From: a virus
Virus record (IMG/VR): IMGVR_UViG_3300021335_001614
Coordinates: 1 to 61,594 of that record
Reading direction: 5' to 3' (one strand)
DNA length: 61,594 nucleotides
The notes below the pieces were generated by a model that ran no database searches, was not told where the DNA came from, and saw only the letters and a list, made by a program, of their open reading frames with translations. Positions 1,065 through 39,921 of the stretch are shown one piece after another (the stretch's first letter is position 1; each line of letters starts with the position of its first letter). The position numbers and the translations under genes are program-made.

Positions 1065-3732
<2,668 letters not shown>

Positions 3733-6634: not shown

Positions 6635-7162
6635 TTATTTTAAAATTGTGTCTTGAGTGTAATCTTTCCATTTTGTAAATTTATCACTCGCCATTAAGTC
6701 ATGTAATCTATGACACCATACTCCGGGATTAGAAACATTAAAAGAAGTGTCATCTATTTTAATCATTGTATTGTAATTCCATAATTTAACATATGGTACA
6801 GGTATTCTAAGTTGCGGAATAAAGTTATTAAACTCACATAGTCCACCCTCGTTAAATTGTTCTATTGCATTAAAAGGAATATCTAAACTGCACAGATGTC
6901 CTTCTTTTAGAAAGTGTTCTACCATCTGTTCCCATTGATCCCAATCTTCTGGTGTTTGTGGATTAAACGAATGATTAGCACCAAAGAAAATGTGTTCTGC
7001 TTTAAGTTTTCCTGCAGCATTAGTAATGTCTAATATAGGTTGTATTCCTACAACAAATAATGTATTCATTAAATAAGCAGGAGTTTTTTCTACTTCTCTA
7101 CCATAAAAGAATCTAACATTATCTCTATTTAACTTTTCGTTACTATAGTTTCTGTCCATCAT
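6635..7162 (-). CDS. conserved phage protein next to dpdA, 175 aa
   Basis: I know this type of protein from T4-like marine phages but not its function. Recognisable segments are FFYGREVEKTPAYLMNTLFV (residues 19-38), GIQPILDI, HIFFGANHSFNPQTPE, HLCSLDIPFNAIEQF and SNPGVWCHRLHDLM. Alternating strands and helices suggest part of an alpha/beta fold, possibly a partial TIM barrel. There is no CxxxCxxC, so it is not a radical SAM QueE. The start ATGATGA overlaps the dpdA stop, and a QueD-like gene follows, so a role in base modification is a reasonable guess. Confidence 0.65.
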   Translation of the reverse strand: MMDRNYSNEKLNRDNVRFFYGREVEKTPAYLMNTLFVVGIQPILDITNAAGKLKAEHIFFGANHSFNPQTPEDWDQWEQMVEHFLKEGHLCSLDIPFNAIEQFNEGGLCEFNNFIPQLRIPVPYVKLWNYNTMIKIDDTSFNVSNPGVWCHRLHDLMASDKFTKWKDYTQDTILK

Positions 7163-8703
7163 ACCTCTTCAATATGTTCGTTATATTTTGTGATTGGATT
7201 AGTCATCTTTTTACCTACAGCGCCTCTTGTGCCGATAATAGTGTCTAAAAATGGTCTGTAATCGTCACAAATTTTATTTGCTTTTTCTTTATCATCAGTT
7301 GAGAATATTTCTTCAACTACTTCACGAAAAGCAATCTTCTCAAATTTTTCATGCAGTAACATAGAAGGAAAAATTCCTGCATCATATTTCCGATTTGCTT
7401 CTTGTACTGCGTTTATATGCATCCAAACATTATGACCCATCATCAATGCATAGCTAAAACTATCCCAGCTAGTTGAATCTTTATCTCTAATAATAGGATT
7501 GCCGTCTTTATCTAATTTTATAGATCCATCTTTGTTTAATTCTGGATCTCCAGCAAGTACTTTGATAGCACCAACTTTATTTTTATCACCTATGTTATAC
7601 ACACAAATGTCATTTGTAAGTAATTTATCAGAAATAGGACTATCCATAAATGATGTATGATTACCTTCTCTAACAAATGCTTTTCCGAATGGAGTAGTAT
7701 CAGTTGCTAAATGCAAACTGTCTATGCTAGGAACCATTCTATAAACCCATTTTGATCTATCATCAGTTTCTAGTTCACAATAAATTTGACCATTAGCAGT
7801 TGCTAAAAACGGACTTGCACAATCAAATGTTATTGTGAAATTTTCATTATGATGTTTTCTAATTGCTCTTTGTACATCTGTTAGTAACGCAGCCCACTCA
7901 AGTTTACTTGTACCTAAGAAATGCATTACATCATGTGTACCTTTTTCTAGCAAACCATCATATCTTAATGCTATAAGTCTTTTAAGTGCTAAGTGTATAT
8001 CACACATATTTTGTCCGCCCATACTCCAACCATTAAAGTGATTAGAAGGATATTTTTTTGGATCACAATAGTCTTTCATTTGTTGATACCAATCCTCTGC
8101 TTCTGTATGGTTTTCACCTTGTAACACATTTAAAAATTTACAAGCACTTGATCTATTTTTTAAAAAATAATTGTTATTAATTCTTGTTGCATCGACTGCT
8201 TGTTGGTAAGTGGTAACTCCTGTAGCTTTTTTTCCTTCGTCACTTCTAGCTACCCAGGCAGGAATGTCTAGTATCATTCCATAATCCATGTATTTGTCCA
8301 TCCAGCGCAAAACGTCATTTCGTTTCTTACTAGCTTTAGGACAACTAGGATCTTTCCAGTCGCCTTCCCAAACACCTTTACCTATTTGGAACCCACCACT
8401 GTCACCAAGTACCCAAGTATCTTCTCGGTTTCGATTCCTTATCATATCTTCGTTTGGGTCATCTTTCGTTATATCCAAGTTTGCATGACCTGCAGAATAC
8501 AGTGTCCACTTATAATAAAACTTGCCTTCTTGTTTATTAATGTAGTTTAAACTTTCGACACCGTTGTTTAAATGTTTAGGAATCCTTGTTTTATCAACAT
8601 AGTCTTCAAATCTTTGTTTGCCCACAAATGTAGCATAGAATCCGCTAAGTGCAGGCAAGAATACTGCATAATCTTTTTGTGTGTTTGTTAAATTTGTGTT
8701 CAT
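7159..8703 (-). CDS. dpdA: DpdA-like tRNA-guanine transglycosylase paralogue (DNA 7-deazaguanine insertion)
   Basis: A 514-residue TGT-superfamily protein. DSGGFQIGKG (101-110) carries the conserved Asp of the TGT active site. FLNVLQGENH (190-199), GWSMGG (225-230) and HFLGTSK (261-267) line the base pocket. FDCASPF (293-299) puts Asp294 at the nucleophile position of TGT (FDCVxPT). The CxCxxC zinc site of true tRNA enzymes is not visible in the C-terminal part. Phage DpdA enzymes exchange guanine in DNA for preQ0-type bases, which blocks restriction. The ATG at 8703 overlaps the clamp stop as TAATG; the longer frame starts at a TTG. A QueD-like gene lies two genes downstream. Other preQ0 genes (FolE, QueE, QueC) are not in this window. 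Confidence 0.78.
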   Translation of the reverse strand: MNTNLTNTQKDYAVFLPALSGFYATFVGKQRFEDYVDKTRIPKHLNNGVESLNYINKQEGKFYYKWTLYSAGHANLDITKDDPNEDMIRNRNREDTWVLGDSGGFQIGKGVWEGDWKDPSCPKASKKRNDVLRWMDKYMDYGMILDIPAWVARSDEGKKATGVTTYQQAVDATRINNNYFLKNRSSACKFLNVLQGENHTEAEDWYQQMKDYCDPKKYPSNHFNGWSMGGQNMCDIHLALKRLIALRYDGLLEKGTHDVMHFLGTSKLEWAALLTDVQRAIRKHHNENFTITFDCASPFLATANGQIYCELETDDRSKWVYRMVPSIDSLHLATDTTPFGKAFVREGNHTSFMDSPISDKLLTNDICVYNIGDKNKVGAIKVLAGDPELNKDGSIKLDKDGNPIIRDKDSTSWDSFSYALMMGHNVWMHINAVQEANRKYDAGIFPSMLLHEKFEKIAFREVVEEIFSTDDKEKANKICDDYRPFLDTIIGTRGAVGKKMTNPITKYNEHIEEV

Positions 8704-9434
8704 TATTTTGTTTGACAAGGAATGATGTAATCATAAGTAGCTAATCCGCTATCTACTGAAATTTTCATCACACCTGTATCTGAAATACTTATAGTAGAAT
8801 TTCCTGATAAACTTAAAATGCTTTGAACTTCTTGCACAGGATAGCTTTTTTGAGTAGTTAAATTGCCACCAGCTTTGTGTTTGAATACAAATTCACCTTC
8901 GTGCGTCACGCTATCGCCAAATGAAAATATAAGATTACCATTATCTGATTTTACGTTAAAATGTAAATTTTCAGAGTGAACAGCACTCATTAGTTTCATT
9001 CTTGTGATACTTGCTACAGGTGGTTCAAATTCAACACCCCACTGAGCACCTTTAAATCTTACACTTTTTAAATTCTTTTCAATAATATCTTTGTTAATAA
9101 ACTTGTACTCATTTTTAAAATCTCCAATGACATTTTCAAAGTATAATCCAGCTGGATATTCTTCGTCATTTTTTGATTTGCGTACTACTTCAATTTTAGC
9201 ATCTTCTTTATATTCAGGACTTTTTAGTAACAAGTTTAATTTATCTAAATTCCCCATACCAAATATTCCATCGAATTCATTAATTCGATCATGAGTGGTG
9301 CCAAATAAAATTACACCTCTATTTTCTGTAATGCTGTTAATAGATGTTGAAGTAGAGTCTGTTGAAATTTTTAGTGTATTTAAAAATCCTAATCCATGTG
9401 TGTGTGATACGATGTCTTGTAAAATATCTTGCAT
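8703..9434 (-). CDS. 45: sliding clamp, gp45-like
   Basis: A 243-residue protein with the layout of T4-like processivity clamps: an N-terminal helix (MQDILQDIVSHTHGLGFL), a strand ladder, then FDGIFGMGNLDKLNLLL (54-70) where gp45 has its YDLNxFL segment, a middle VRFKGAQWGVEF, and a C-terminal strand pair ISISDTGVMKISV (215-227) plus YDYIIP (234-239). Clamps encircle DNA, tether gp43 and, in T4, drive late transcription. It lies two genes from gp43, and gp44 is elsewhere in the window. The gene follows the 1175-residue clamp-like gene by 15 bases. The assignment is by pattern and context. Confidence 0.65.
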   Translation of the reverse strand: MQDILQDIVSHTHGLGFLNTLKISTDSTSTSINSITENRGVILFGTTHDRINEFDGIFGMGNLDKLNLLLKSPEYKEDAKIEVVRKSKNDEEYPAGLYFENVIGDFKNEYKFINKDIIEKNLKSVRFKGAQWGVEFEPPVASITRMKLMSAVHSENLHFNVKSDNGNLIFSFGDSVTHEGEFVFKHKAGGNLTTQKSYPVQEVQSILSLSGNSTISISDTGVMKISVDSGLATYDYIIPCQTK

Positions 9435-9449: not shown

Positions 9450-12400
9450 TTAAGTTTTTTCTGTTCCTTGTAGTATATAATTGTATATACCATTTGGGCT
9501 CTTTACAGTTATCATTAAACGGCCTTCGTCGGAAATTCGCATAACCTTGTTACCGTCTAACAATTGAATGGCTAAAATTTGAGGCACGTTGTACGTCCAA
9601 CGTTTATCTAAGTAGCTAACAGGCATCAGGTACGAATCTCGTTCATTTATAAATATTTTAACTTGATTTTCTGCTCCTGTCAAGATCGGATTGTTTTTTA
9701 TGCTGTTAATTAAATCTTGGCGTATTTCGAAAGCGTACACATATTTTTTATCTAATTCTGTAAGCGATACTGGTCGCCTTAGATCAAAACCTCTTACTAC
9801 ATTCTGATCAGAATATTGCGGAGTTACTGGAGGCAATGCTGGCGGTACTGAAATATTGCCAGCCATGTGTGTATGACGTGGGCAATAGTAATAATATGTG
9901 TTATTTTCTTCTACAGTCCAATTTACAGTGGCAGTACCATTTCCGTATGATCCTGGTGCCGGGTATCTTGTCTTCTTTTCTAGTTTAGTTTTTATCCAAA
10001 AAGGATGAACAACAGGCGAATCTACAATAAATTGGACTTTATCTCCTACATCAAATGTTAAAGATGGCATTATTTCTAAGTTAAAAGTACCATTTTTATC
10101 TTCACCTGTCATGACAAAGTTTTCCTGGTCAACAGTCACAGTAATTATGTAGTCTGGTGTAAATCCAGGTGACCATGCATTTCTTCCATAAATGTAATCA
10201 TTTTCTTCATAATAGTATGGAGCCCATAAAGTTGAATCCTGTGGGAAAGGTAAGTTTACGTCATTAAAAATATGTTCATAGGGAAGTTCATTTGGAATAG
10301 GATCTAAATCTGGATGATATAAATTTTGCCGTGTATATATGACAGGCGGTTTGCCTATGCTTGATAAGTTTTGTGCAGAATAACTGCTGAATACAAATCC
10401 ATTTCCTGTGTCGTGTCGTATAAAAAATTCATTAGGTGTGTCATAGAACTTTAGTACCTCGCCGTCTAAAGTATCTGTAATTTGTAATCTTCGGTTATTT
10501 AATATATTTTTAATAAAATACTGTTGATTAGTAGATAACGTTGCCGCAGTAACTGCGGTAGGATCATTATAAGATTCAAATTGTATTGGCATATTCAATC
10601 TGAACCAACCTGTATCGTCAACTTCTAATTCATTTGCTTCATGGTAGATGAAAAATTCAAAATTGCTATATGGCACAGGTTTAACAGGACCACCTATAGT
10701 TTCGCTTATAGTGAATTCTAATCTTACAAAATCCATTTTCATTTCAAATTCAAAATTGCTGTATGGTAATAGCAACTGTTCACCGTCTGGTTCTGCTGAC
10801 AGTGTAAAAAATCCGTCTTTATATACGTCTTTTATATAATATTTTTTAAAAGGATCAGGTGTAACAGGATCTTCTAGTTCGGCTTCTACTAATGCGCCAG
10901 TAGAGTCTGGTAAATTTGAAAAGTAAACTTCAAGTCCTGGATATAAAACATCTATAAATTCTTTGTCAGCAGGCACATCTAACGATAAAATTCCGTCACT
11001 ATCTATACCAGTGACTAAAAATGATTCTTCTCCATCATAAAACTTTGTTATTTCTTTTACATAATACGTTTGTAAAGGATCTAGTTCTGCTTGTAATAAT
11101 GCATCAGTAGAATCAGGGGGATTCCTAAATTTAACAGGCATGTTAGGTTCTAAGTATTTCCATAATTCTTTTCCATCAGTTTGTGCATATGAAGAATTAA
11201 AATCAAAAATTTGATAGATATTTAGGTCAACGGTCAAAAATAGTTCAAAATTTGTAAACGGTAATATATGAGCAGGTCCCCCTACTGAGTCAGAGAAAGT
11301 GAACCTTTCGCAATCTAATATTTCTTTCACATAGTATGTAGAAGTTGGATCTAATCCAGCAGCTACTACAGCATCTGCACTATCTGGAGGACTACTGAAC
11401 CGTATAGGATTGTTTACTTTTAAAATAGAAGTATCTTCTATAGTAATAATGTCATTTTCCTCATCAAGGAATGGTCCTATAAAATAGTTTCTATAAGGCA
11501 CTTGCCTATATATAGTATTAGTGTATTCAGCAAATGTTCTTGTTATAGTTTTGAATTCATCAATAATTCTAGGAATATATGTTCCTTTTATGTTTTGTTC
11601 CCAGGTTATCTTACCAAAATTAGGATTATCTTCACCAAAATAAAATTCTAAATCATGTTCAGCAAATACATTTGATGCGGTTACGATCCTTGCTAAAAAA
11701 TCAAAATTTGAATAAGGAAGTAATAATTGATTGCCGTTCAAAGTATCTGAGATAGTGAAAGATCCGTTGCTGAATGATGTAAGAACATAATAAATGGTAT
11801 TTGGTAATAATCCAACACCTGACAATGCATTTGATGAATCGCTAGGATTGCTAAAAATTAATTTTGTACCAGGAGATACTATTAATGTATCACTTAACAA
11901 TCTACTATTATTGTCAATGCCAGAGATAATATTTGTATTTTTATTATTAGTGTATAAATCAAATGTTACGTAATCTACATACGCAAGCGCCATTAGATTA
12001 AATCTAGATTTTTGTAATTCAGTAAGATTAAGGCTAAAGTTCCAAAGACTATTTTTAAAGTCGATCATTTCATGTTGTGACGGGACGACGGTTCTATCTA
12101 TTAACTGCCATTCATCTTTAAATGTAGGATTGTCAAAATTTAATTTTGTACTAACAAATTCATTGTTTTCGTCTACATTGGTAACAATGATATTATTGTC
12201 AGTTGGATATTCTTGTAAATTTTCTAAATAATTGAATAGTTTGTAAAGATCAACCATGCCAAACTCAGCATTAAAATCAGATATTTTTTCATCTGTTCTA
12301 GCATCTAGATATACTACTTTATCTTCAGTGACACCTTCTATAAAAGTTTGATCTTGGATTATTTCGAAGCTTGTTGTTATTGCATTAGAAAAATGCAAAA

Positions 12401-12977
12401 AATTATAGTGAGAATCTTTTACGGTATTAGGTAAGTGTTGGGATGAGCTAATTCGAATTTTGTTGTCTTCTAGTATTTCATATACAAAATATTTTGTTAA
12501 TAGTTGTAACCCTGCTAAAGATACTTTATTTCCATAGATAGGAAATTCTTCAAAGACTAGACGCATACCTATATCTAACCAACTTGTATCTTTTATTATC
12601 AGATAACTACGATCAAATTTTATATTAAAGCTTCCTGTAGGTGTAGTTAAAGGTAATACTTCTCCAGGAAGTTCGGTTTCGCCTATACTGAATTTTACGC
12701 AGGTTGTATCTCCTACAATATTTTTAACATAATAATATTTTGCAGGATTTATTTCTGTAGATATACCTTCAAATCTAACTTTCATTTTAGATTCTAACCA
12801 CGGCACATTATTAGTTGTTGTTACAAGTTGATTATTTTCAACATCTACTCTTGTAATTGTACCTGTTAAATCAGGTATTATTTCAACAACCTCACTTTTA
12901 ATATGATATAGTTTTAAAAAATGAAATAATGTATTGTTATAAGTATATTCTAATATTTCTTGTAGTGTTGCTCTCAT
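9450..12977 (-). CDS. giant clamp-like protein with virion-type repeats and a cupredoxin-like insert, 1175 aa
   Basis: Parts of this protein parallel the adjacent 243-residue clamp. The N-terminus MRATLQEILEYTYNNTLFHF resembles its first helix; DFNAEFGMVDLYKL (234-247) matches EFDGIFGMGNLDKL; IDFKNSLWNFSL (305-316) matches VRFKGAQWGVEF; and the end, YNVPQILAIQLL, MRISDEGRLMITV (1146-1158) and YNYIL (1165-1169), matches the clamp C-terminus. Between them are at least five repeats of the form PDSxxALxxAxLDPxxTYYVKEI...LPYSNFEFF (for example 530-553 and 620-643), known from marine phage tail proteins. Residues about 957-1045 form a cupredoxin-like domain with His991, Cys1032, His1035 and Met1038. 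It may be a clamp paralogue with domains inserted in loops, or a virion protein on a clamp fold. A GTTAAATA box precedes it at 13005. Confidence 0.7.
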   Translation of the reverse strand: MRATLQEILEYTYNNTLFHFLKLYHIKSEVVEIIPDLTGTITRVDVENNQLVTTTNNVPWLESKMKVRFEGISTEINPAKYYYVKNIVGDTTCVKFSIGETELPGEVLPLTTPTGSFNIKFDRSYLIIKDTSWLDIGMRLVFEEFPIYGNKVSLAGLQLLTKYFVYEILEDNKIRISSSQHLPNTVKDSHYNFLHFSNAITTSFEIIQDQTFIEGVTEDKVVYLDARTDEKISDFNAEFGMVDLYKLFNYLENLQEYPTDNNIIVTNVDENNEFVSTKLNFDNPTFKDEWQLIDRTVVPSQHEMIDFKNSLWNFSLNLTELQKSRFNLMALAYVDYVTFDLYTNNKNTNIISGIDNNSRLLSDTLIVSPGTKLIFSNPSDSSNALSGVGLLPNTIYYVLTSFSNGSFTISDTLNGNQLLLPYSNFDFLARIVTASNVFAEHDLEFYFGEDNPNFGKITWEQNIKGTYIPRIIDEFKTITRTFAEYTNTIYRQVPYRNYFIGPFLDEENDIITIEDTSILKVNNPIRFSSPPDSADAVVAAGLDPTSTYYVKEILDCERFTFSDSVGGPAHILPFTNFELFLTVDLNIYQIFDFNSSYAQTDGKELWKYLEPNMPVKFRNPPDSTDALLQAELDPLQTYYVKEITKFYDGEESFLVTGIDSDGILSLDVPADKEFIDVLYPGLEVYFSNLPDSTGALVEAELEDPVTPDPFKKYYIKDVYKDGFFTLSAEPDGEQLLLPYSNFEFEMKMDFVRLEFTISETIGGPVKPVPYSNFEFFIYHEANELEVDDTGWFRLNMPIQFESYNDPTAVTAATLSTNQQYFIKNILNNRRLQITDTLDGEVLKFYDTPNEFFIRHDTGNGFVFSSYSAQNLSSIGKPPVIYTRQNLYHPDLDPIPNELPYEHIFNDVNLPFPQDSTLWAPYYYEENDYIYGRNAWSPGFTPDYIITVTVDQENFVMTGEDKNGTFNLEIMPSLTFDVGDKVQFIVDSPVVHPFWIKTKLEKKTRYPAPGSYGNGTATVNWTVEENNTYYYYCPRHTHMAGNISVPPALPPVTPQYSDQNVVRGFDLRRPVSLTELDKKYVYAFEIRQDLINSIKNNPILTGAENQVKIFINERDSYLMPVSYLDKRWTYNVPQILAIQLLDGNKVMRISDEGRLMITVKSPNGIYNYILQGTEKT

Positions 12978-13587: not shown

Positions 13588-16257
13588 TTAATCCCACTCA
13601 AAAAAGCTGTTGAAAGTATTTTCTTGTTTTGTTTCATCTAGATTATAATTTAAAACACCGATTAGATTATCTAATTTTTTATCAATAATTGCTTCTTCCA
13701 TTGCGTCACTATCAAATGGAAGTTCTTTAAACCAATCAGGTAATCTAAGTTCATCTACAGGATATGCAACACTTGTATAACCTATTGGATTAGGCTTTAA
13801 TTTACAAACTATAACTTTCATTCCGTCAACAATATCCATACTATATCTATCGTTATTAATATGTTTTAAAGAATTCCAATTTAAACTTGCTCTTACGTGA
13901 CCTGGAAGATTAGCTTTCCCTTTAGATTCTTCTAGTCTTTGATAGTGTCCTATCTTATTAGCACGTTTAGGAGATCCTTTTTCCCAACCTGGTCTATCTT
14001 TAAATTCTTTTCTAAAGTCAGTAATTCTTTGAATAATTTCTTCTTCTGGTGTTTCTTTTAAAACCATCATTAATATTTCCATCAAAAATTCCTGCATAAA
14101 AACCGGAGTGTCAGATCTTCGAAGATCTAAGCCCATTGCTTTTACTTTACCTGGCTTACCGTCTATATCTTTACGTTCACCTTCTAAGTCATATACTAAA
14201 GCAGCATATCTTTTTTTCGTAATATATAATCCCGATTCTGCAACAATTTCTCTACCTGCTGCAATTACTGCAGATCTGCTAGCTGGACAATGGAATGCAT
14301 TTAACATAAAGTCTTTAAAGGTAGTATTAGCTTCTTCTGCTACTTGATCATATAGTGTAATCACTGCTTCTTTTGACCAAGGAATGCTTCCATTGTCTAT
14401 TTCTGTTTTTAATACAGGATATGCACTAAAGTAAACTGAATCTGTATCGCCATATATTACGGCCTTGCCAACGTGATTGTAATCACCAGTTATAACTTTA
14501 TTAACTTCTGCGCTCATATGCTTTACAATTTGCCTGCCAGTTAGCGTAGTTGATTGTCCTATACGCTTATCAAAAAATCTACATCCTGGATTTAAAATTG
14601 CACCGTATAATGAATTTAGATTAATTTTCTTTACAAGTTGCCGTTTGTCCCAAAAAGCAATTTCTAGCGGATTACCTGCTTCGATAGCTTTCTTTTTCAT
14701 TGCTTGTAGTTCTTTACGCTCTGCATACCAACGTTTTAATATTCCTGGAATTACTCCTTCAAATTCAGTTGTGAATATTGTACCATTCGCACTTAACATC
14801 CAAGGCATTCCGCTATCAAATACCAGCTTGTAAACTTCGGCTCCACTTAGTGTTTCAGATCTTCCATCCTCGAAATCTAAAGTTAGTACAACATCTTTAC
14901 GTTGATCGATCACTGCTTGATATTCTTCTGTACCAAAGCGGCCTTCCCAAGCACCTGCAAATGATTTTTTTTCTAGCGTAATTGCTTCATGAATAATGCT
15001 GTCTGTCATTTCAGGACGTAATTGTCCAATGATTGTTTCAGGTGCCATGTTTAATGCACGAATAACACTTGGATATAGACTGTTTAAATCCATACTACCT
15101 ATCCATTTGTGTACACCTTTTTTTGGAAATGCAACATAAGCACCTGCAGCCGCTGTATTTTCGTCATCTCTCTTAGGGCGATTAGGTACACGCATGCCTC
15201 TTTCGTGTGCTTCGTTAATAATCGCTTGTTCTGTAACTGCTACAGCACCCATTGTGGTTTGTAGCAATACAGTATTTGCATGGGCAAGTTCGTTGCTTAG
15301 ATCAATAAATTTTAGTTTTTTGTCTAATTTATCTAGCAGTGCAACGTCTTGTCTGTTGTATTCAATAAATGTTTTAAAATCGTTATTGTATAACTGGTCA
15401 AGTGTACCTTCGTAAACAGTTTTACGCTCACCTACTTCCATTTCGCCAATTGCATCTAGTCTATAGCTATGTCGTTCTTCGTATGTGTACTTCCTATATA
15501 GTTCAAGACTGTCTAAATGTACACGGCCAACAAGATCAAACGTTTCGGCTTTTTTGCCAAACTTTTCATATTCTCTTTTCTTAGGCAATTGCTTCCACAA
15601 GCAAAAGCGTCTAGTATCATCTTTACTTAAAATCCTACTTACACGATTTACAGTGTAGGGAATATCATAACCTTCTGAATTCCAACCGCTTAAGACATCG
15701 GCATCTTCTATAAGATCTAGGAACGTTTCAAGCATGTCTCCTTCGTCGGTGAACAATAAAACTTCCTCACCCCATTGTGCTACTTCATGCTTTGCTTGAT
15801 CTAATGAAAGTGTTTTAGGAGGAAGGGCTAATGTAATAAGAACATCTAACCATTGTAGATTTACAGTAATTGCAGTAATTGGCATGAAAGGATCTGCAGG
15901 ATCAGCAAATCCTCTATCAGGATCAAAGTCTGTTTCAATGTCAAAAAATGCAATATTTAATTTTGGTGCATCTTGATTTAAATAATTTTCACTTAGACAT
16001 TGGAAAATAGGATTTACATCACTTTCAAATAAAGTTTTGTCTCTATTAATTGCTATTTCTTTACGAAAATCTTTTGTGTTTTTACAGATAATTTTTGAGA
16101 GGGGATCTCCGTAAATACTTAAATGTTTTCCCTTAGGATCTTTGTAATAAAAAATATATTTTACTGGATGTTCTACAAATTTCCTCTTACCTTCATGTCT
16201 TTCTACGACACGAATAAGGTCTTCATTTCTATCAAATATAGCGTCAACGTAACTCAT
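13588..16257 (-). CDS. 43: family B DNA polymerase, gp43-like
   Basis: The replicative polymerase, 889 residues, as in T4-like phages. The exonuclease domain has FFDIETD (105-111, Exo I), WNSEGYDIPY (192-201, Exo II) and YNRQD (300-304, Exo III). The polymerase domain has MDLNSLYPS (389-397, motif A), KKINLNSLYG (motif B) and YGDTDS (about 601-606, motif C). The C-terminus NTFNSFFEWD is aromatic like the clamp-binding tail of T4 gp43. The clamp-like genes lie directly downstream. A GATAAATA box at 16318-16325, 60 bases upstream, may add a late promoter besides read-through from the sigma-70 promoter at 18009. Confidence 0.96.
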   Translation of the reverse strand: MSYVDAIFDRNEDLIRVVERHEGKRKFVEHPVKYIFYYKDPKGKHLSIYGDPLSKIICKNTKDFRKEIAINRDKTLFESDVNPIFQCLSENYLNQDAPKLNIAFFDIETDFDPDRGFADPADPFMPITAITVNLQWLDVLITLALPPKTLSLDQAKHEVAQWGEEVLLFTDEGDMLETFLDLIEDADVLSGWNSEGYDIPYTVNRVSRILSKDDTRRFCLWKQLPKKREYEKFGKKAETFDLVGRVHLDSLELYRKYTYEERHSYRLDAIGEMEVGERKTVYEGTLDQLYNNDFKTFIEYNRQDVALLDKLDKKLKFIDLSNELAHANTVLLQTTMGAVAVTEQAIINEAHERGMRVPNRPKRDDENTAAAGAYVAFPKKGVHKWIGSMDLNSLYPSVIRALNMAPETIIGQLRPEMTDSIIHEAITLEKKSFAGAWEGRFGTEEYQAVIDQRKDVVLTLDFEDGRSETLSGAEVYKLVFDSGMPWMLSANGTIFTTEFEGVIPGILKRWYAERKELQAMKKKAIEAGNPLEIAFWDKRQLVKKINLNSLYGAILNPGCRFFDKRIGQSTTLTGRQIVKHMSAEVNKVITGDYNHVGKAVIYGDTDSVYFSAYPVLKTEIDNGSIPWSKEAVITLYDQVAEEANTTFKDFMLNAFHCPASRSAVIAAGREIVAESGLYITKKRYAALVYDLEGERKDIDGKPGKVKAMGLDLRRSDTPVFMQEFLMEILMMVLKETPEEEIIQRITDFRKEFKDRPGWEKGSPKRANKIGHYQRLEESKGKANLPGHVRASLNWNSLKHINNDRYSMDIVDGMKVIVCKLKPNPIGYTSVAYPVDELRLPDWFKELPFDSDAMEEAIIDKKLDNLIGVLNYNLDETKQENTFNSFFEWD

Positions 16258-21480: not shown

Positions 21481-22194
21481 TTATTTATCTAAATCTTTGC
21501 GATAAACAAGCTCGTCAGTACGTCCTAGACTATTTCCTGCCATTAAAGTTACAAGTGTTAAGACAGATTTATCACGTACATACATCATACATCCCTCTAG
21601 TCCATAACCTTTTTCCATATATTCTAATGTGCTTGCAGATACTTTTACTTTATCAGTGTTGTTCTTACACCATTTACCAAAACTAGGAATACCTTTGTTA
21701 CTGTTAAATTTAACCTTCCATTTGTATTCCGGAGGCTTGTCAACAAGGATAATATGACCATTCGCTAACAATGCCTCGACATATTTAGGATCTGGTTGAT
21801 GGAATTCTTGAGCACATTCGATTCTAGTAGCCATTTCTAATAACCATGCTTTATCATTTGCGTAAAACTTACCAGTATATGGCCAATCTATCCTAATCTT
21901 AAATTCTCTACTAACTAATTTTTCAGTAAGACATTTATAAATTGTTTGTGCATCCCTAAAATGACGATATTTAATTTTGCCGTTGCTAATATCGTCACGT
22001 ATATGATGCGGTATATCTGAGGTTAATCTATGCTTATCTTCAAAGTAAAGGCGAAGCCCGTCGAGTATTCTCATTGCCCAAGCAGGACCACTTGATTGGC
22101 AGTTACGAAAAATTACCAGTAAAGGATTTTGGCATTTCAGCGCATAAAGATATTCATTATAAAATAACTTATTTGTCTCAATGTGCTGCAACAT
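21481..22194 (-). CDS. hypothetical protein, 237 aa
   Basis: Not assigned. It is a soluble alpha/beta protein with FRNCQSSGPAWAMRILDGLR (29-48), a basic middle (RHFRDAQTIYKCLTEKL), IRIDWPYTGKFYANDKAWLL and a C-terminal MEKGYGLEGCMMYVRDKSVL plus GRTDELVYRKDLD. Conserved-looking tryptophans and a Cys near the end suggest a folded enzyme or binding protein. It overlaps the clpA stop by 17 bases and is therefore cotranscribed with it; a link to proteolysis is speculative. Confidence 0.66.
   Translation of the reverse strand: MLQHIETNKLFYNEYLYALKCQNPLLVIFRNCQSSGPAWAMRILDGLRLYFEDKHRLTSDIPHHIRDDISNGKIKYRHFRDAQTIYKCLTEKLVSREFKIRIDWPYTGKFYANDKAWLLEMATRIECAQEFHQPDPKYVEALLANGHIILVDKPPEYKWKVKFNSNKGIPSFGKWCKNNTDKVKVSASTLEYMEKGYGLEGCMMYVRDKSVLTLVTLMAGNSLGRTDELVYRKDLDK
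21482..21489 (-). promoter_or_regulatory. late promoter box GATAAATA, possibly leaderless
   Basis: Seven of eight bases match the T4 late box. Counting the box as -13 to -6 puts +1 at 21476, the A of the ATG of the 129-residue gene. It overlaps the stop codon of the upstream gene. Confidence 0.45.
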
Positions 22195-24415
22195 GCTCCT
22201 CCTCTACTGTAATATCAAACTCGTTATCTTTAATCACAATCTTACATTTCCCGCCATTTTTTAAACTACCAAACAACATTGCTTTACTAAGAGGTTTCTT
22301 GATTTCTCTATCAATAATTCTCTGCAACGGTCTTGCACCCATTTTGCTATCATACCCTTTTTCAACTAGCACATCTAATGCCTCATCATCTATTGAGATA
22401 GTGATGTTTTTATCTTTAATCTGTTCTCGTAAAGCAAATAAAAATTTGCCAACAATTTTCATCATAATTTCTTTGCTTAATTTGCCGAAAGTAACTACCC
22501 CATCTAATCGATTCCTAAACTCAGGAGCAAAAAAGTTTTTAAGCTCTGTATCGGAATATTCTTGATCAAATTCATTACCAAAACCTATTGTGTTTTTCTC
22601 TGCTTCTTCTGCACCAAGATTTGTTGTAAGGATTAAAATACAATTTCTTGCATCAGCTTCCTTACCGTGCGACCCTGTAATCCTTCCATTGTCCATAATT
22701 TGTAGTAAAATCTGCGATACATCCGGATGAGCTTTTTCTATCTCATCTAGTAATAAAACACAATTAGGATTTTCTTCTAATTTTGTAATAAGAAGGCCGT
22801 TATTCTCCTCGTAGCCTACATAGCCTGGAGGAGACCCGATTAGTTTTGCAACACTGTGCTTTTCTTGATACTCGCTCATGTCAAATCTTACAAGTTTTAC
22901 ACCTAAATGATTAGCGAGCTGTTTCGCAGTTTCTGTTTTACCAGTTCCTGTAGGACCCATAAACACAAAACTACCAATCGGCTTAGTTTCGTCTTTTAGC
23001 CCAGCCTGTGCAATAAGGATTTTATCGACTAAATCTTCAATAGCTTTATCTTGCCCGTAAACACTGTCTTTGATATTCTTTTCTAGATGTACAAGATTTT
23101 CAGTTTCTCTTTCTGCTACTTGTTCAGCTGGTAGATTAATCATTTTTGCAAGTTCAAATTGAATTGATTTATCGTCAATCTTTTTTTCAATTTCATCTTC
23201 TATAAGGTTAAATCTACTACAGGCAACGTCAATTAAATCTATAGCTTTATCTGGTAATTTCTTGTCATTTTGGTATTTTACACTTAGTTTGATTGCTGCT
23301 CCAATAGCTTCGTCAGTTATGATAACTTTGTGAAACTCTTCGTAATACTTTTTAATACCGTTAAGGATATCAACAGTGATTTCTGGTGACGGTTCGTCTA
23401 CAGTTACTCTTTGAAATCTACGCATTAATGCTCGGTCTTTTTCAAAATACTTTCTATACTCGTCCCATGTCGTACTAGCAACTACTTTAATATTTCCTTT
23501 ACTTAGAGCAGGTTTAAGCATGTTTGCTAGATCATTTGAATCTTTGCCACCCCCGGCACCTGCGCCATTAATCATGTGGGCTTCGTCAATGAAAAGGATT
23601 GTTTTGCCTTTGCTTTTCAAGCCTTGCAAGATTAGTTTTAATCTTTCCTCAAAATCGCCTCGGTATTTTGTGCCTGCTAACAATCCACTTATATCTAGAT
23701 TGTAAACTTGATATTCTTTCAAAAAATCAGGTACCTCATCATTTACAATTTTGTAAGCTAATCCTTCTATAATTGCTGTTTTGCCAACACCTGGATCACC
23801 TACTAGTATGATATTATTTTTTTGCCTACGGCCTAATGCAAGTGCTACTGATTCTAAAATGTCTGCTCTTCCTATTACAGGATCAATTTTGTTTTTTTCT
23901 GCCTCTTTATTTAGATTCACAGTAAATGATTTAAGTGCTTTTAATGCTTGGCTGCTGATTTCTTCTTCTTCTAGTTCAGGCTCAATTTCACTGTGCAAAT
24001 AATCAGTTAGTTGGTCTTTAGAAATACCATTCTTTTCTAAATAGAAAGCAGCCATTGATTTTTTTTCTGCAAGTATGCTTAGAATAATATCGGTTAAATC
24101 AATAGTAGACCTTCCGCTAAAGAGACACTGTGTAAAAGCCCTATTTAATACACGTTCAACCGATTGGGTTTTTTTTGGTTTATAACCTTCTTTGTCAGTT
24201 GTAATGTCTGCATATTCACTTTTTAAATATTTTTCAAGGCTAGATTTAATCGTATCTACATCGGCACCAAATCCTTTTAATATATTGTAAAGGTTTTCGC
24301 TGCACATAGCAGCAAAAAGTAAATGCTCTAATGTCACATACTCGTGGCTTAGGTTTTTTGCGTCTTTAACTGCTTTGTCAAAAACTAATTTTAACTCTTC
24401 GTTAGGTTCTACCAT
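22178..24415 (-). CDS. clpA: ClpA-like AAA+ unfoldase with ClpP-binding loop
   Basis: A full-length ClpA (745 residues). The N-domain (LEHLLFAAMC) is followed by AAA1 with Walker A GDPGVGKT (206-213), Walker B ILFIDEAH (273-280) and pore loop KYRG, and AAA2 with Walker A GPTGTGKT (487-494), Walker B VLLLDE (553-558) and pore loop GYVG. The tripeptide IGF at 610-612 sits where ClpA has its ClpP-docking loop, so it should work with host ClpP. No phage ClpP is seen here. It would feed selected proteins into host protease during infection. A sigma-70-like promoter (24445-24473) lies upstream, so it may be early. Confidence 0.94.
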   Translation of the reverse strand: MVEPNEELKLVFDKAVKDAKNLSHEYVTLEHLLFAAMCSENLYNILKGFGADVDTIKSSLEKYLKSEYADITTDKEGYKPKKTQSVERVLNRAFTQCLFSGRSTIDLTDIILSILAEKKSMAAFYLEKNGISKDQLTDYLHSEIEPELEEEEISSQALKALKSFTVNLNKEAEKNKIDPVIGRADILESVALALGRRQKNNIILVGDPGVGKTAIIEGLAYKIVNDEVPDFLKEYQVYNLDISGLLAGTKYRGDFEERLKLILQGLKSKGKTILFIDEAHMINGAGAGGGKDSNDLANMLKPALSKGNIKVVASTTWDEYRKYFEKDRALMRRFQRVTVDEPSPEITVDILNGIKKYYEEFHKVIITDEAIGAAIKLSVKYQNDKKLPDKAIDLIDVACSRFNLIEDEIEKKIDDKSIQFELAKMINLPAEQVAERETENLVHLEKNIKDSVYGQDKAIEDLVDKILIAQAGLKDETKPIGSFVFMGPTGTGKTETAKQLANHLGVKLVRFDMSEYQEKHSVAKLIGSPPGYVGYEENNGLLITKLEENPNCVLLLDEIEKAHPDVSQILLQIMDNGRITGSHGKEADARNCILILTTNLGAEEAEKNTIGFGNEFDQEYSDTELKNFFAPEFRNRLDGVVTFGKLSKEIMMKIVGKFLFALREQIKDKNITISIDDEALDVLVEKGYDSKMGARPLQRIIDREIKKPLSKAMLFGSLKNGGKCKIVIKDNEFDITVEEEHVAAH

Positions 24416-28033: not shown

Positions 28034-28750
28034 TTAAGAAATGCGTTCTACAACTAGTGTTTTTCCTTTGTTTTCTAACGTCAATTTATTACCATATTTG
28101 GTAATATTATAATCGCCTATATATTTTGATAGATATATAATTTCTGCAAAATCCCATGGATTAAAGCTTTCTGTTAATCTATCAAATACATCTTGTTTGT
28201 TGCCAAAATCTAAAAACCTTAGTTGTAATCGTTCTGAGTATGGTTTTTGTAATACAATAGTTTCACTTAACATTTCAATGTTATCACAATAGCTATTACT
28301 AAAGAAATGTTTGTAATTTTCCATTGTTGTTTGTTCTAGTTTTACACTGTAATCATCTGCACTTGTCGGTATTGTTTCTGTTAATGCTTCTAGTGTTGCT
28401 TCTTTGCTGTTGAAGTTTTTATAATAACGGAATTTTAAATTATTTACGCCGCTTATTTTTTTAACGCCATCAAGCATTTCGTATAGGTTTTCGCTTATAT
28501 GTCTATCTCTTTCAATCTCCACAAAAACTTTATAGTTTCCATCTTTTAATTCTCCTGCCGATACGTCTGCATCAAGTATAAAACTATACCCGTTTTCTAA
28601 AAATTTGACTAAATCATCTGCAGGGGCTTTATCTTTCATTGTAAAACTAACAACTACAATGTCTTGATCTTCTCCCATTTTACTACTGTATGAATCAACT
28701 TCAAAAATATCATACATCATATATTTTAAATCATGCTTATGTAGACTCAT
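28034..28750 (-). CDS. hypothetical protein, probable virion component, 238 aa
   Basis: Not assigned to a family. It is a mixed alpha/beta acidic protein: IVVVSFTMKDKAPADDLVKF, KVFVEIERDRHISENLYEML, KFRYYKNFNSKEATLEALTE and a C-terminal ITKYGNKLTLENKGKTLVV. I recall similar proteins in T4-like cyanophages beside structural genes. It overlaps the 197-residue gene by one base (a TAATG-type junction) and ends 10 bases before the endolysin, so it belongs to the late transcript started at 29359-29378. Confidence 0.65.
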   Translation of the reverse strand: MSLHKHDLKYMMYDIFEVDSYSSKMGEDQDIVVVSFTMKDKAPADDLVKFLENGYSFILDADVSAGELKDGNYKVFVEIERDRHISENLYEMLDGVKKISGVNNLKFRYYKNFNSKEATLEALTETIPTSADDYSVKLEQTTMENYKHFFSNSYCDNIEMLSETIVLQKPYSERLQLRFLDFGNKQDVFDRLTESFNPWDFAEIIYLSKYIGDYNITKYGNKLTLENKGKTLVVERIS

Positions 28751-29343
28751 TATACTGCTCCTGCTGGTGCTGCTCCAGCTTCAGGTGGTGCTGCTCCAGC
28801 TTCAGGTGGTGCTGCTCCGCCCATATCCATTCCTTCTGGCATTCCACCGGCTGCTAAATCATCAGCTGGCTGCTCAGTACCAGGTGCTGTTGCTTCTGTT
28901 GCAGGATCTGTTATCCAATCCCATTTTTCTTTGTAGCTACCATATATATCAGCTAATAATTTTTTAGGCATCATAATGCTTACAATCCAAATAGGACGAC
29001 GATCGAGTTTACCTTTCTTTGTACCTGGGCGCATGTCATCGGGTTTTCGTATTTTCCTAGGTTTAAGCATGTAAGTTTTTTGATAGCTAATTTTGCAATC
29101 ATAATCTAATAATCTTTTACCGCCCATAGGATCTGGCATCTTATTCCTATCCCAGAAAAATTTACATGTAACCCAATGTCTATCAATAATCGGCCCTTCG
29201 GCTAATTCACCATCTTCCCAATTGTCATATACATATAAGTCTAATTCATCTAATACACGCTCGAAATCTTTTAGGATTTGAAAACCTGTATTACTTTCAT
29301 ATATTCTTTCTACGTTTTTAATTACGTCATAAATGTCTTGCAT
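28750..29343 (-). CDS. conserved phage protein with C-terminal PPEAGAA repeats, 197 aa
   Basis: The N-terminal 130 residues look folded and conserved in marine T4-like phages: QILKDFERVLDELDLYVYDN, GPIIDRHWVTCKFFWDR, GGKRLLDYDCKISYQKTY. The C-terminal 45 residues are low complexity, Ala/Pro/Gly/Glu-rich, built from 7-residue PPEAGAA units encoded by a 21-base tandem repeat. It is the first gene of a late transcript; two late boxes precede it. Probably structural; function unknown. Confidence 0.7.
   Translation of the reverse strand: MQDIYDVIKNVERIYESNTGFQILKDFERVLDELDLYVYDNWEDGELAEGPIIDRHWVTCKFFWDRNKMPDPMGGKRLLDYDCKISYQKTYMLKPRKIRKPDDMRPGTKKGKLDRRPIWIVSIMMPKKLLADIYGSYKEKWDWITDPATEATAPGTEQPADDLAAGGMPEGMDMGGAAPPEAGAAPPEAGAAPAGAV
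28769..28819. repeat. 21-base tandem repeat, about 2.4 copies
   Basis: Units start at 28769, 28790 and 28811 (partial). They are in frame within the C-terminus of the 197-residue protein and encode AAPPEAG. Copy number may vary between strains by slippage. Confidence 0.85.
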
Positions 29344-32052: not shown

Positions 32053-32420
32053 TCATCTTCCTCTGGTTGATCCCCTTTTCCGGGTTTTTCTGAAAAATGT
32101 TCTTCTAACTTGTTTGGGCGATATGCCCATGCTGCTGCATCCGCTGGCACATCTTCTTTACGTTGCACAGTAATATTAGGCCATACTTGCGACCACTTGT
32201 AATTAAAATCTACCCAAAACTGTCGCTTCTCGGGTGAGACTTTCGTGTCAGGCCAAATTGCATCTACAGGGCATTCTGGTTGGCAGACCCCGCAATCAAT
32301 ACATTCGTTTGGGTTAATGACTAAAGTATTTTCGCCTTCGTAAAAGCAGTCTACTGGACACACTTCTACGCAATCCATGTGTTTGCAATTTATACAATTA
32401 TCATCTATTATATAAGTCAT
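32049..32420 (-). CDS. fdxA: seven-iron-type ferredoxin (FdxA-like)
   Basis: Cysteines at 9, 12, 17, 21 and 25 ([17 protein letters not shown]) and at 40, 43, 46 and 50 ([11 protein letters not shown]) fit a [3Fe-4S][4Fe-4S] ferredoxin. The sequence around them ([19 protein letters not shown]) is very like alphaproteobacterial FdxA, and so is VWPNITV near residue 80. The last 30 residues are a polar extension. It could pass electrons to the radical SAM enzyme or another reductase. It probably came from a host; the donor group is inferred. Confidence 0.93.
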
Positions 32421-33331
32421 AATCTACTCAATTTAATTAGTACAGCCGCAAGATTAATTTCAGGGTCTACAACTAGTGTATGATCTACCAAGCCTTGCTT
32501 GATAATTAATACTGCTGAATCTTGTTTTTCATCATCGCCGAATAATTCTAAATTTTCATATAGCCATCTATAGATATCTTCCATTTCTTCTGGTCGAACG
32601 GTACCGCATAATAATTTTCGTGCATCTTGGATTTTACCCGCTTTAAAAAGTTCTACCATTTCAAGCTTCCAATCAGTTTCTCCCGAATCATTTTCATGTG
32701 GTGCTATCAAGCTTTTATCTTGTACGTTCATCTGCACCATATTTATACACTTGCGTAAGTCTGGATATGTAGCTTTGACATATGTGTCAAGGATATCAAG
32801 ATCTGGTGTCACGTTTTCTGCAATTAAAATTTCTGCTACTCTAGCTGTAAATTCTGTTTGATCTACCCGTGCAATATGAAAGCCTTGACATCTGCTATGG
32901 ATTGCAGGAATAATTTTATTAGGATAATTACACGTTAATATAAATCTAGCAAACTCGTGATATTCTTCCATCACACCACGTAAAGCGGCTTGAGCATTTG
33001 GCGAAAGATAATCAGCTTCATCTAGCAATACAACTTTAAAATCGCCAAAAGGAATCATTTGTACAAAGTTTACAATTTTATCTCTAACATCGTCAACGGA
33101 GTTTGTTCTACTAGCGTTAATTTCAAGGATGTCAAGATCTTCAACTGTCAATTCATTTAGCAGTAATTTTGCTAAAGTTGTCTTGCCTATTCCTGCATTT
33201 CCACTAAAAAGCAAATGTGGGATACTTTGGTCTTTAATCCATTGTTGTATTTGCTTTTTCTGTGCTTCATCTCTAAAAACGTATCCCTCAACAGTTTTAG
33301 GTCTATATTTTTCTACCCAAAGTTCTTTCAT
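32417..33331 (-). CDS. 44: clamp-loader large subunit, gp44-like
   Basis: An AAA+ clamp loader of 304 residues. It opens with LWVEKYRPK. Walker A is GNAGIGKT (44-51), Walker B is [11 protein letters not shown] (100-110), and SRC at 146-148 gives the arginine finger. It loads the sliding clamp on primed DNA for gp43. The small subunit gp62 is not visible in this window. It overlaps the ferredoxin and MazG-like genes by 4 bases each. Confidence 0.95.
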
Positions 33332-36622: not shown

Positions 36623-36812
36623 CATCATTATTATTTGTATTATCCCTTTTTCTTCTATCAGCTTCCCATTTTATATCGTCAACAATTAACGCAATTTGTG
36701 CTTGCACAGCAGGATTATTTGTCATCCAATATTTTTTTGTTAAATCCTGCAATTGTTCATATAGTTCTTTATCGCTTAAACTTTGTAAATTGTTTACTAA
36801 TGGATGAGACAT
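36597..36812 (-). CDS. small conserved phage protein, 71 aa
   Basis: A helical protein: MSHPLVNNLQSLSDKELYEQ, then LQDLTKKYWMTNNPAVQAQI and a C-terminal helix IVDDIKWEADRRKR. I recall the MSHPLVNNL start from T4-like cyanophage proteins of unknown function. The ATG shares one base with the stop of the fibre gene upstream. The promoter for the next gene lies in its last codons. Confidence 0.68.
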   Translation of the reverse strand: MSHPLVNNLQSLSDKELYEQLQDLTKKYWMTNNPAVQAQIALIVDDIKWEADRRKRDNTNNNDVDNLIKVV

Positions 36813-37366
36813 TAAATAAACTCACCTAAGTATTGAGCAAAAACAGTTGATCCTCCGTCACTAGTCCAGAAATCAAAAATCTTTGGGTTAGTGCTAGATT
36901 CTATTGTAAACGCAATAGGAAAGCCTGTAATAGCTTTAATATTGTTTCCTTGCGTAGATGCCCAAGATAGATTGTGCGCCCCTTGGTCATTTCCATAAAC
37001 TTCAACTCGTAATTTAGCATATCTACCACTCACAGGCCAATTAGACAATGTTAAAGTTAAATCATCTGTAGCAGTTATAGTTTGATGCTGCCCATAAGAC
37101 CAGTTGATATTAACAGAAGTAGCTGTTGCTTGTGATATTGTTTTTTCTGTAGAATTAAATAGGACAGCTTGTTGGATTTCGTTATTGTTGAAATCATTGT
37201 CAAGATTTAATTTTGCAGTATTTTCTTCTAAACTTGTTATCTCTGATTTTGCAGTTGCTAATGAATTTTTTATAATGTTAAAATTATCTCTAAATCCCTG
37301 GCTATCGTTGTCTTGCCCAGCAATAGGAAAATTTTCATCTATATCAATTGATATAATATTTGACAT
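36812..37366 (-). CDS. tail fibre/baseplate-associated protein, 184 aa
   Basis: The N-terminus IDENFPIAGQDNDSQGFRDN, then FNIIKNSLATAKSEI, is the adapter-like helix motif seen at the start of many marine phage fibre proteins. The rest is beta-rich (TITATDDLTLTLSNWPVSG, YAKLRVEVYGNDQGAHNLSW) and ends VFAQYLGEFI. An AATAAATA box precedes it at 37383. It is probably a virion protein attaching to the fibre or baseplate. Confidence 0.72.
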   Translation of the reverse strand: MSNIISIDIDENFPIAGQDNDSQGFRDNFNIIKNSLATAKSEITSLEENTAKLNLDNDFNNNEIQQAVLFNSTEKTISQATATSVNINWSYGQHQTITATDDLTLTLSNWPVSGRYAKLRVEVYGNDQGAHNLSWASTQGNNIKAITGFPIAFTIESSTNPKIFDFWTSDGGSTVFAQYLGEFI

Positions 37367-37395: not shown

Positions 37396-39921
37396 TTATA
37401 CGTTATGAGCATAATTATGGAAAACTAAATATTGCTCGTTTGAATTACCTTCTGTAGAATCTACGATGTATCTATCTACATCAATATTGAAATTTTGGAA
37501 GGAAACTCTAGCTCTATTCAGCGCAGTTAAAATTTCTTTACTAGTATTTGGTTTACAAAAACACAATGGTATTGCTGGTTTATAACCTAAAAAATTAATA
37601 TTATTTTCTTGTGCAGTACGCATCCATAATGGTAAAAATTCAATCTCAGTTTCACCTACATTTTTTATATTATTCCTAACATGAGTTAAATTAGAAATAT
37701 ATTTTTTATTTTTTTGTGCGCCATCAATTGTTATCCCATCAAAATCTACTTTCATAGTATTATCAGGAACTGGTCTAAACCTAAAAGGTTCATTAGGTCC
37801 TTCTAATAAATTACCAACTAATTTTCTGTCATTTATTACTAAAGGATTAATATCAATGTAAATTTCTTCACCATTCCGTCTATCAATTACAAAATATGGG
37901 TTAAAATAATGTTCCACATCTCCATATTCGTTTGTGCCTATTACTATGCCCATTGGTTTTGCATTTTCTACACTATAAGGATCTAAATTATACAAACTTT
38001 GATCTACAGTCATTTTGTTTGGATTATCTATGTTAATATATTTTTTAGTTTCATCTATTCCGTTTTGATCTGGATCTATAACTTCTACATATACTACTTC
38101 GTATACAATTGTATTTGTTCCTGGTTTTTTTGCTACTGCAGTTTTGATTTGTCCTAGCTTATACTTTTTCCTTTTATTATTTTTTGATATGGCAGACACA
38201 TAGTGACCTGCAGCTTTAGTTTCAATTCCTGCATAAATTAGCATTTGTATTTTCTTTTGTATACCAAAACTTGGATCATTAGGTCTATAAATAAATTCAT
38301 CACTAAAATAATCTTTGTTACTAATTAAATCATTATATGCAATTCGTTGATTCTCTTTCAATAATGGTCTTGCATAGATGTTGCTATAAAGTTTATCATC
38401 AGGATCTGTTATTTTTATACTAAATGTTTTCTCGATAGCACTATATCCATAATGATCTCTGGCTTTTGCGATAAAAGTATATGAGCGGTCAATGGTAGTA
38501 ACATTTTGATCAAATTTTGTGTTGCTGCTATCAAACGTTGTAACACCTGGTGTTTCAGCACTACCAAAACTATTAATTTTGCCTATTATTTCTCCGTCAT
38601 AGCTTAGTCTGAGTCCAGGGGGAAGCTTACCTGATACTAAATTATAAATTAAAATACTATTAGGTACATTCGTTGTTGCTTGTAAATTCAAAGTGCTTTT
38701 GTAATTTGTATTAATTGTGCCTAAGTTGCCAGGTGTAGACCAGGTCATTGTACTATCTATTTCGCCTAGCATTTTTACAGTAAATGTTTTATCTTTATCT
38801 GTTTCTTCTGTTGTATTTGGTACTCTGCGTAATGCTCTTATTGTAAATTTGTATTCTTTTGTAACTGCTTGTTGATAAGGAACACGGCCTGCTATCTCTC
38901 CATTCGATTCATCTAGTGTTAATCCTAATGGTAAAGTACTTGGACTTCCGTCATCATTTGTATTTTCTAAAGAATAAGTTATTATACCTGTTAGTGTATC
39001 TAAATCTAAAACATCTAAAAATAAAGTTACGAAATTATTTGCTCTCCTATACCCAAAGTTACGAGGAGTTAGCCAAATTGGTGTTCTTATGTGAGTGTTA
39101 TCCGCGGTAAACACTCCGTTGGCAATTTTCATTATAGTATTATCAGCTCGTAGGAAATCGTCACCTACAACGTAAATTTGAAATTGCCTTTTCACAATCT
39201 CTATTCCGTCTGTAACACTTACTTTAAAGTCATAGAATCTATTTAATTTTTTTGGACTTTGGGTAGGAACAAAAGTGTCATAAATGATAGTGTCATAAAA
39301 AAAACTGTCAAATCCATTGTCTGAAACACTACCACCGAAATCAAATGGATAGCTCCCATACAAGTTGCTATCATAGGCACCGTTACCTCCTTCTGCTGCA
39401 ATAGCAAGAATAGGTTCGACAATACCTACAAGTCTTCCGTCTGCAGTTAATTTGATTCCAGGCGGTAATTCTCCGTCACCTGGTTGGATATAATATTCTA
39501 AATCATCTCCTGCAATAGTATCTGGATCGATTGCAATAAGTTGAAAATCAATAACAGCACTATCTAAAATAAAATATTTGTCATTTGAACCTACAGGCAA
39601 ATTACCTTCTGGAGTAACCCAAACAGGATCATCAGGGCCTTTCACTATAATTTTGTAAGTTCTGTCATCTATATGACCATACTGTTCTGCTCTTATTACA
39701 AATGAATAAACAGTATCAATTTCTACCTCATAAGGTGTACCTAGTATTTGATAGTTTTCTAATCTCATGCCTCGTGGCAAGTTTCCGGTTAATATCGATA
39801 ATTTTAAATTATTATCTTGTAACGGAATAAACTGTAATTTGATTGGTAGATCTAAACTCGTTGTTTTTCTTTCTTCAAGCTCTGCAAGTATAGTATCGGA
39901 AGGTTTAGTCCAAAAATTCAT
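37396..39921 (-). CDS. structural protein with repeated Ig-like (He_PIG type) domains, 841 aa
   Basis: Repeated beta-sandwich units have the He_PIG signature: GNLPRGMRLENYQILGTP (45-62), then GELPPGIKLTADGRLVG, STLPLGLTLDESNGEIAG and GKLPPGLRLSYDGEIIG, each followed by a strand pair with YSFVIRA, YDFKVSV, YKFTIRA or YTFIAKA. After about residue 480 the sequence changes to a non-repeated C-terminal region ending FHNYAHNV. Such proteins decorate tail fibres or baseplates and bind cell-surface polysaccharide. A perfect TATAAATA lies 18 bases before the ATG. Confidence 0.82.
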   Translation of the reverse strand: MNFWTKPSDTILAELEERKTTSLDLPIKLQFIPLQDNNLKLSILTGNLPRGMRLENYQILGTPYEVEIDTVYSFVIRAEQYGHIDDRTYKIIVKGPDDPVWVTPEGNLPVGSNDKYFILDSAVIDFQLIAIDPDTIAGDDLEYYIQPGDGELPPGIKLTADGRLVGIVEPILAIAAEGGNGAYDSNLYGSYPFDFGGSVSDNGFDSFFYDTIIYDTFVPTQSPKKLNRFYDFKVSVTDGIEIVKRQFQIYVVGDDFLRADNTIMKIANGVFTADNTHIRTPIWLTPRNFGYRRANNFVTLFLDVLDLDTLTGIITYSLENTNDDGSPSTLPLGLTLDESNGEIAGRVPYQQAVTKEYKFTIRALRRVPNTTEETDKDKTFTVKMLGEIDSTMTWSTPGNLGTINTNYKSTLNLQATTNVPNSILIYNLVSGKLPPGLRLSYDGEIIGKINSFGSAETPGVTTFDSSNTKFDQNVTTIDRSYTFIAKARDHYGYSAIEKTFSIKITDPDDKLYSNIYARPLLKENQRIAYNDLISNKDYFSDEFIYRPNDPSFGIQKKIQMLIYAGIETKAAGHYVSAISKNNKRKKYKLGQIKTAVAKKPGTNTIVYEVVYVEVIDPDQNGIDETKKYINIDNPNKMTVDQSLYNLDPYSVENAKPMGIVIGTNEYGDVEHYFNPYFVIDRRNGEEIYIDINPLVINDRKLVGNLLEGPNEPFRFRPVPDNTMKVDFDGITIDGAQKNKKYISNLTHVRNNIKNVGETEIEFLPLWMRTAQENNINFLGYKPAIPLCFCKPNTSKEILTALNRARVSFQNFNIDVDRYIVDSTEGNSNEQYLVFHNYAHNV

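Follow-up and report, generated by a model that had tools for sequence, protein, structure and literature searches.

A predicted giant paralogue of a PCNA-type sliding clamp with virion-type insertions in a marine jumbo-type phage

Few shapes in DNA replication are as well conserved as the sliding clamp. In a marine jumbo-type phage, a 1175-residue ORF lies beside a protein that is, by its predicted fold, an ordinary clamp, and the locus raises the question of how the two are related, what the additional sequence of the larger protein is, and whether that protein still works in replication. We analyzed the whole of a 61.6-kb virus record (the window), which is probably a piece of a larger genome. 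On its minus strand, a 184-aa ORF (p184), the 1175-residue protein (the giant) and the 243-aa clamp lie between the family B DNA polymerase gene (polB) and a DpdA-like ORF, and polB, p184, the giant and the clamp form a same-strand run of replication genes. The main features of the window are:

7159-8718, flanking the clamp: DpdA-like ORF, 519 aa, with a tRNA-guanine-transglycosylase-like look by eye
8703..9434, minus strand: predicted PCNA-fold sliding clamp, 243 aa (AF2 model, Foldseek, Z to yeast PCNA)
9450..12977, minus strand: putative giant clamp paralogue, 1175 aa (ORF, clamp profile, conservation, dN/dS, three inserts)
13588..16257, minus strand: family B DNA polymerase, polB (phrog_262, E 2.3e-199)
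32417..33331, minus strand: gp44-like clamp loader ATPase (phrog_168, E 2.5e-75)

The DpdA-like ORF was without a match in Pfam, PHROG or NCBIfam. In PA5oct and Vibrio 2.275.O, 7-deazaguanine genes are found near the clamp.

By its model, the 243-aa protein is a PCNA-fold sliding clamp across the whole chain, which bears out the sequence-only reading of this neighbor as a gp45-like clamp. The AF2 model, built from 30 sequences, had a pLDDT of 87.7, matched a PCNA-type clamp among solved structures (Foldseek E 3.4e-11, probability 1.00) and superposed on yeast PCNA with Z 19.1 over 224 residues (rmsd 3.1 A), spanning residues 1-243. Sequence searches with the family gave no clamp match in solved structures or in Pfam, and the fold alone revealed it; a look for the gp45 C-domain, PF09116, in three phage records was negative. 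Clamp partners are encoded in the window, namely the AAA+ gp44-like loader and polB, whose C-terminus, QENTFNSFFEWD, resembles a clamp-binding (PIP-like) tail. The tail motif, TFNxLF[ED][WF], is present in nearly all relatives; RB69 gp43 has a clamp-binding tail with which it may be compared.

The 243-aa protein belongs to PHROG 12062, filed until now under unknown function and identified here, from the predicted fold, as a clamp family. The members encountered measure about 240-260 aa and occur in one copy per genome, and full-length relatives adjoin or lie near polB in PA5oct, Vibrio 2.275.O, Phosso, Atu_ph07, GAP32 and CBB. The RaK2 and CBB papers each report a clamp loader and no gp45 (PMC3622015 and PMC5259590, respectively). 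PHROG 12062 is apparently the missing, unrecognized gp45 clamp of RaK2/GAP32/PA5oct-type jumbo phages. For the PA5oct orthologue, the annotation is that of a virion protein detected by MS; gp265, the clamp of CBB, goes unmentioned in the examined text of the CBB virion-proteome paper.

On sequence comparison, the giant is a homologue or paralogue of this phage PCNA-type clamp that has kept the clamp chain. Pairwise BLASTP aligned giant residues 189-347 with clamp residues 10-167 (E 7e-12) and residues 1123-1169 with 192-238 (E 1e-5), in the same order as in the clamp. A profile of the 243-aa family detected the giant with E 2.4e-31 through pieces collinear with the clamp (hmm 27-173 to giant 208-353, 165-191 to 440-466 and 191-241 to 1122-1172) and matched no further large ORF in the window or in the relatives' loci examined. 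The PHROG 12062 profile alone also matched (E 3.1e-5, residues 199-329), which makes that family, whose other members were seen without inserts, a direct homologue of the giant. In shuffle controls, giant segments 200-350, 435-475 and 1115-1175 outscored every shuffle (0/300 or 0/1000 reached them). The sequence-only claim that the two neighbors share ordered segments is thus upheld, by the profile comparison and the shuffles, for the core and C-terminal pieces and not for the N-terminal helix, which was not significant alone: with residues 1-40 tested, the window copy was scoreless and 26/1000 shuffles reached the copy in the related contig L007. The helix match rests on position and predicted helicity. 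A MAFFT alignment of the giants with clamps placed nearly all clamp residues on the giant, with three long gaps between them. Since the giant ends with clamp sequence and, weakly, starts with it, the extra parts are best read as insertions into a clamp, which divide the ORF as follows:

12936..12977, minus strand: putative first clamp helix alpha-A1, residues 1-14 (helix in the model; sequence match not significant alone)
12384..12896, minus strand: insert 1, about residues 28-198, two modules (breakpoint somewhere between clamp residues about 14 and 28)
11919..12383, minus strand: clamp core segment, residues 199-353, clamp about 20-173 (domain E 1.1e-19; BLASTP 7e-12)
11661..11918, minus strand: insert 2, residues 354-439, one module (beta-B2/beta-C2 turn)
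11580..11660, minus strand: clamp core segment, residues 440-466, strands beta-C2 and beta-D2 (outscores 1000/1000 shuffles)
9615..11579, minus strand: insert 3, residues 467-1121, four modules and a half module, linkers and a cupredoxin-like domain (beta-D2/beta-E2 loop)
9837..10160, minus strand: cupredoxin-like domain, residues 940-1047, inside insert 3 (PHROG matches; invariant residues)
9462..9614, minus strand: clamp core C-terminal segment, residues 1122-1172 (domain E 3.7e-9)

The full-length model of the giant, made from a shallow alignment that included clamps, was of low confidence (pLDDT 45, pTM 0.27); most clamp secondary-structure elements were present in it, in order. When the model was realigned, clamps were the top solved matches (Z 8.4 to the Sulfolobus PCNA heterotrimer and 8.3 to yeast PCNA), a result that is not independent evidence because clamps stood in the model's alignment. 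Foldseek returned no significant solved match for it, the best being PCNA 3k4x (E 0.024, probability 0.04). The matches in a viral structure library were tail-like proteins that superposed poorly, and they were set aside.

The inserts measure about 170, 86 and 655 residues, or about 910 extra residues in all. We take the site of insert 2 to be the PCNA turn that holds K164 and that of insert 3 to be the PCNA D2-E2 loop. The faces on which the inserts leave the ring were assigned from the strand order of the model against PCNA topology, not from coordinates. Ubiquitin at PCNA K164 sits on the back side, away from the polymerase pocket (PMC5295019). By topology, inserts 2 and 3 exit on the back face, opposite the polymerase-binding face; insert 1, between helix alpha-A1 and strand beta-C1, may exit on the other face.

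By their profile matches, the inserts are virion-type and related to tail-fibre proteins of related contigs. Seven modules of ~80 residues were recognized, distributed as two, one and four over inserts 1, 2 and 3, with a further half module in insert 3, and they are mutually homologous (leave-one-out profile scores of 24-76 bits, against <=8 for shuffles). Their profile matched two ORFs of a related contig (G011), of 1907 aa (E 4.7e-10) and 775-777 aa (E 4.3e-5), both of which match tail-fibre PHROGs; weaker matches were to further large tail ORFs and a pectin-lyase-fold protein. The tail-fibre proteins of related marine contigs (phrog_9851, phrog_5342) carry a module of the giant's kind, and no clamp segments were found in them. 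The module of insert 2 resembles an SH3-like barrel (FeoA, Z 6.7, on the low-confidence model). No module scored above threshold in the large fibre proteins that the window itself encodes, nothing significant came up in named phages when three modules served as queries, and a search of bacterial and archaeal genomes with patterns gave no relative. A 775-aa tail-fibre protein (L161:3051-5378) has five carbohydrate-binding CBM5/12 (chitin-type) modules.

Within insert 3, residues 940-1047 match phrog_9158 (E 7.8e-14) and the tail family phrog_677 (E 1.1e-8); the match to Pfam Copper-bind (E 0.016) is below cut-off. This stretch is related to the C-terminal cupredoxin domain of a 644-aa subtilase in a related marine phage contig (G004; L154:3606-5540), whose Copper-bind match is above the Pfam cut-off and whose gene adjoins a repetitive fibre-like ORF. 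Residues H991, C1032, H1035 and M1038 are invariant across the giants and are candidate copper ligands. The module and tail-PHROG matches sustain the sequence-only view that the loops of the giant took up virion-type domains; its estimate of roughly 800 residues of repeats is amended to the three separate inserts, all of which carry the mutually homologous repeats.

The giant occurs in five other IMG/VR contigs at 71-100% identity, intact in L003, L004, L005 and L007 and running to the contig end in L006. It is always downstream of p184 and, wherever the contig continues, upstream of the clamp, with a replication-gene neighborhood in all giant-bearing contigs. The order of its modules is conserved, and a dN/dS of about 0.14 indicates purifying selection. 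A close relative, L011, has a clamp and polymerase 95-96% identical to those of the window, with p184 followed directly by the clamp; no giant and no module were found in that 66-kb contig. A search with a giant-plus-clamp profile yielded at least 461 clamp loci, and no other clamp with inserts was found among the best 80, which were examined for them. In each of eleven further records, which include five named jumbo phages, there is a single clamp. ORFs of 237-251 aa near the clamps of relatives, considered as extra clamps, look by eye like sugar-nucleotide/HAD-type enzymes and gave no clamp-profile match.

A single gain of the giant with a loss in L011 is the simplest history, because L007 branches before L011 by polymerase identity; exchange is a possible alternative. 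The giant had been read from the sequence as a duplicated clamp. Its homology to the neighboring clamp stands, and the tree places the giants elsewhere, as one clade on a long branch among other contigs' clamps and not with their own neighbors, although a topology constrained to group them with those neighbors was not rejected (AU p 0.098). What lies between polB and the clamp varies among relatives (L011 5380-6120; L012-L064): the giant, nothing, or nucleotidyltransferase/HAD/UDP-sugar dehydrogenase-like genes. Several relatives (GAP32, CBB, PA5oct and Vibrio 2.275.O) have genes for tail fibres or adhesins immediately upstream of polB and the clamp, which makes recombination of tail modules into the region plausible and these genes a possible source of the modules. 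In L012 (1-4030), polB is in two pieces with a 314-aa ORF between them, and the PA5oct polB is likewise split by a Hef-like homing endonuclease. The ordinary clamp is only 70% identical between the window (8703-9434) and L007 (9561-10289) at 92% polB identity, against 81-95% clamp identity in other pairs at that polB distance; the adjacent DpdA-like gene is 74% identical. The divergence could reflect changed constraint, a mixed ring, or a recombined block that includes the DpdA-like gene.

Several clamp features are retained in the giant and others are lost. The aromatic/hydrophobic pattern of the two interface strands is retained, and every giant has kept K246 and R325, two residues of the inner helices. 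At the clamp-invariant P239, the C-terminal proline of the partner pocket, every giant has Q, and 3/9 conserved connector-loop positions are kept; the conserved partner pocket, judged by this proline and the connector loop, was not recovered. The net charge of the inner helices is 0, 0 and -3 in the giants, compared with 0 to +4 in clamps, and the whole protein is strongly acidic (-71).

We tentatively favor the reading that the giant is a trimeric display or structural ring rather than a replication clamp. With its clamp chain retained in full and modules of tail-fibre type inserted in three of its loops, the protein would still close into a three-membered ring, which may serve as a display platform for the modules; with inserts 2 and 3 on the back face, the polymerase-binding face would stay free. 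The giant probably no longer serves the polymerase, because it lacks the C-terminal proline and its inner helices have a charge within or under the range of clamps, and its module content suggests a role in the virion or its assembly, as a structural ring in the virion or en route to it. Clamp homology, modules akin to tail fibres and a cupredoxin-like domain akin to tail PHROGs argue for this reading, as do the virion annotation of the PA5oct orthologue and purifying selection. Against it stand the poor model of the giant, the CBB clamp that the examined proteome text does not name, and the face of insert 1; K246 and R325 would suit DNA binding, and the replication-gene neighborhood together with the lack of a late-promoter-like motif points to replication. 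That motif, ATAAATA, was absent within 75 nt upstream of the giant in the window and L004, and a late-promoter reading of this upstream region found no support. Elsewhere in the window, this T4-late-promoter-like sequence occurs 18 times on both strands, including shortly before virion-type and some other genes (28750-29343, 36812-37366, 37396-39921, 40677-49433 and 57240-57614).

The replication-gene neighborhood speaks for a DNA-encircling display clamp, a reading we consider doubtful. On this view the giant would be loaded on phage DNA, either by itself or together with the 243-aa clamp in a mixed ring, and its back-face modules would tether that DNA to the membrane, to assembling virions or to a partner. 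A clamp loader is encoded, back-face inserts 2 and 3 would leave the loader/polymerase face free, and the two inner-helix residues are kept; a mixed ring could also explain the unusual divergence of the ordinary clamp, except that the L007 divergence covers the DpdA-like gene as well, so that block recombination is possible. The changes at P239 and in much of the connector loop, inner helices whose charge is not raised and the acidity of the protein argue against it. We regard as unlikely its fuller form, in which a DNA-encircling ring, perhaps mixed with the ordinary clamp, shows tail-fibre modules and the cupredoxin-like domain on its back face and links phage DNA to virion assembly or the cell surface. 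An intact frame in the window and the other IMG/VR contigs (one cut by a contig end), the low dN/dS and conserved module order weigh against a relic of modular accretion, that is, a clamp copy in a recombination hot spot that gathered tail-fibre modules and whose product is marginal or a decoy that, for example, titrates partners; the variable polB-clamp interval and the absence of the giant from the same site in L011 would fit such a relic, which we find improbable. That the giant is an unrelated protein or a chimeric assembly of a clamp and a tail gene is hardly credible: beyond the surprising mix of domains nothing speaks for it, clamp sequence (E 2.4e-31) flanks every insert except the first, and the same architecture in conserved relatives from independent metagenome assemblies (71-86% identity) refutes an artefact.

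The two-domain chain of PCNA and T4 gp45, with its interface strands, connector loop and four inner helices, can be followed in order through the aligned and predicted segments of the giant, which differs in its three enlarged loops, in the lost pocket proline and in not being Pfam-recognizable. Heterotrimeric clamps (archaeal PCNA1/2/3, Rad9-Hus1-Rad1) also have paralogous subunits with separate roles, as the giant and the clamp would, but are without virion-type insertions. In ubiquitin- or SUMO-modified PCNA, a cargo domain likewise projects backward from the K164 turn; enzymes attach that cargo, whereas in the giant it is encoded in the chain. An open-access literature search for a clamp with inserted domains found none, and the mixing of a replication ring with virion parts in one protein appears to be undescribed. 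We know of no earlier clamp that acts as a display scaffold, and the giant would be the first. With some 910 virion-type residues, it would show directly that tail modules can recombine into a gene for replication.

Two other genes of the window deserve mention. An adenylosuccinate synthase (2192-3460), which its PHROG name would make a 2-aminoadenine-pathway enzyme, passes the PurA cut-off and not that of PurZ, which leaves that assignment unsupported. At 22178-24415, the phage encodes a ClpA-like double AAA+ ATPase (TIGR02639 below cut-off) that belongs to phrog_4871.
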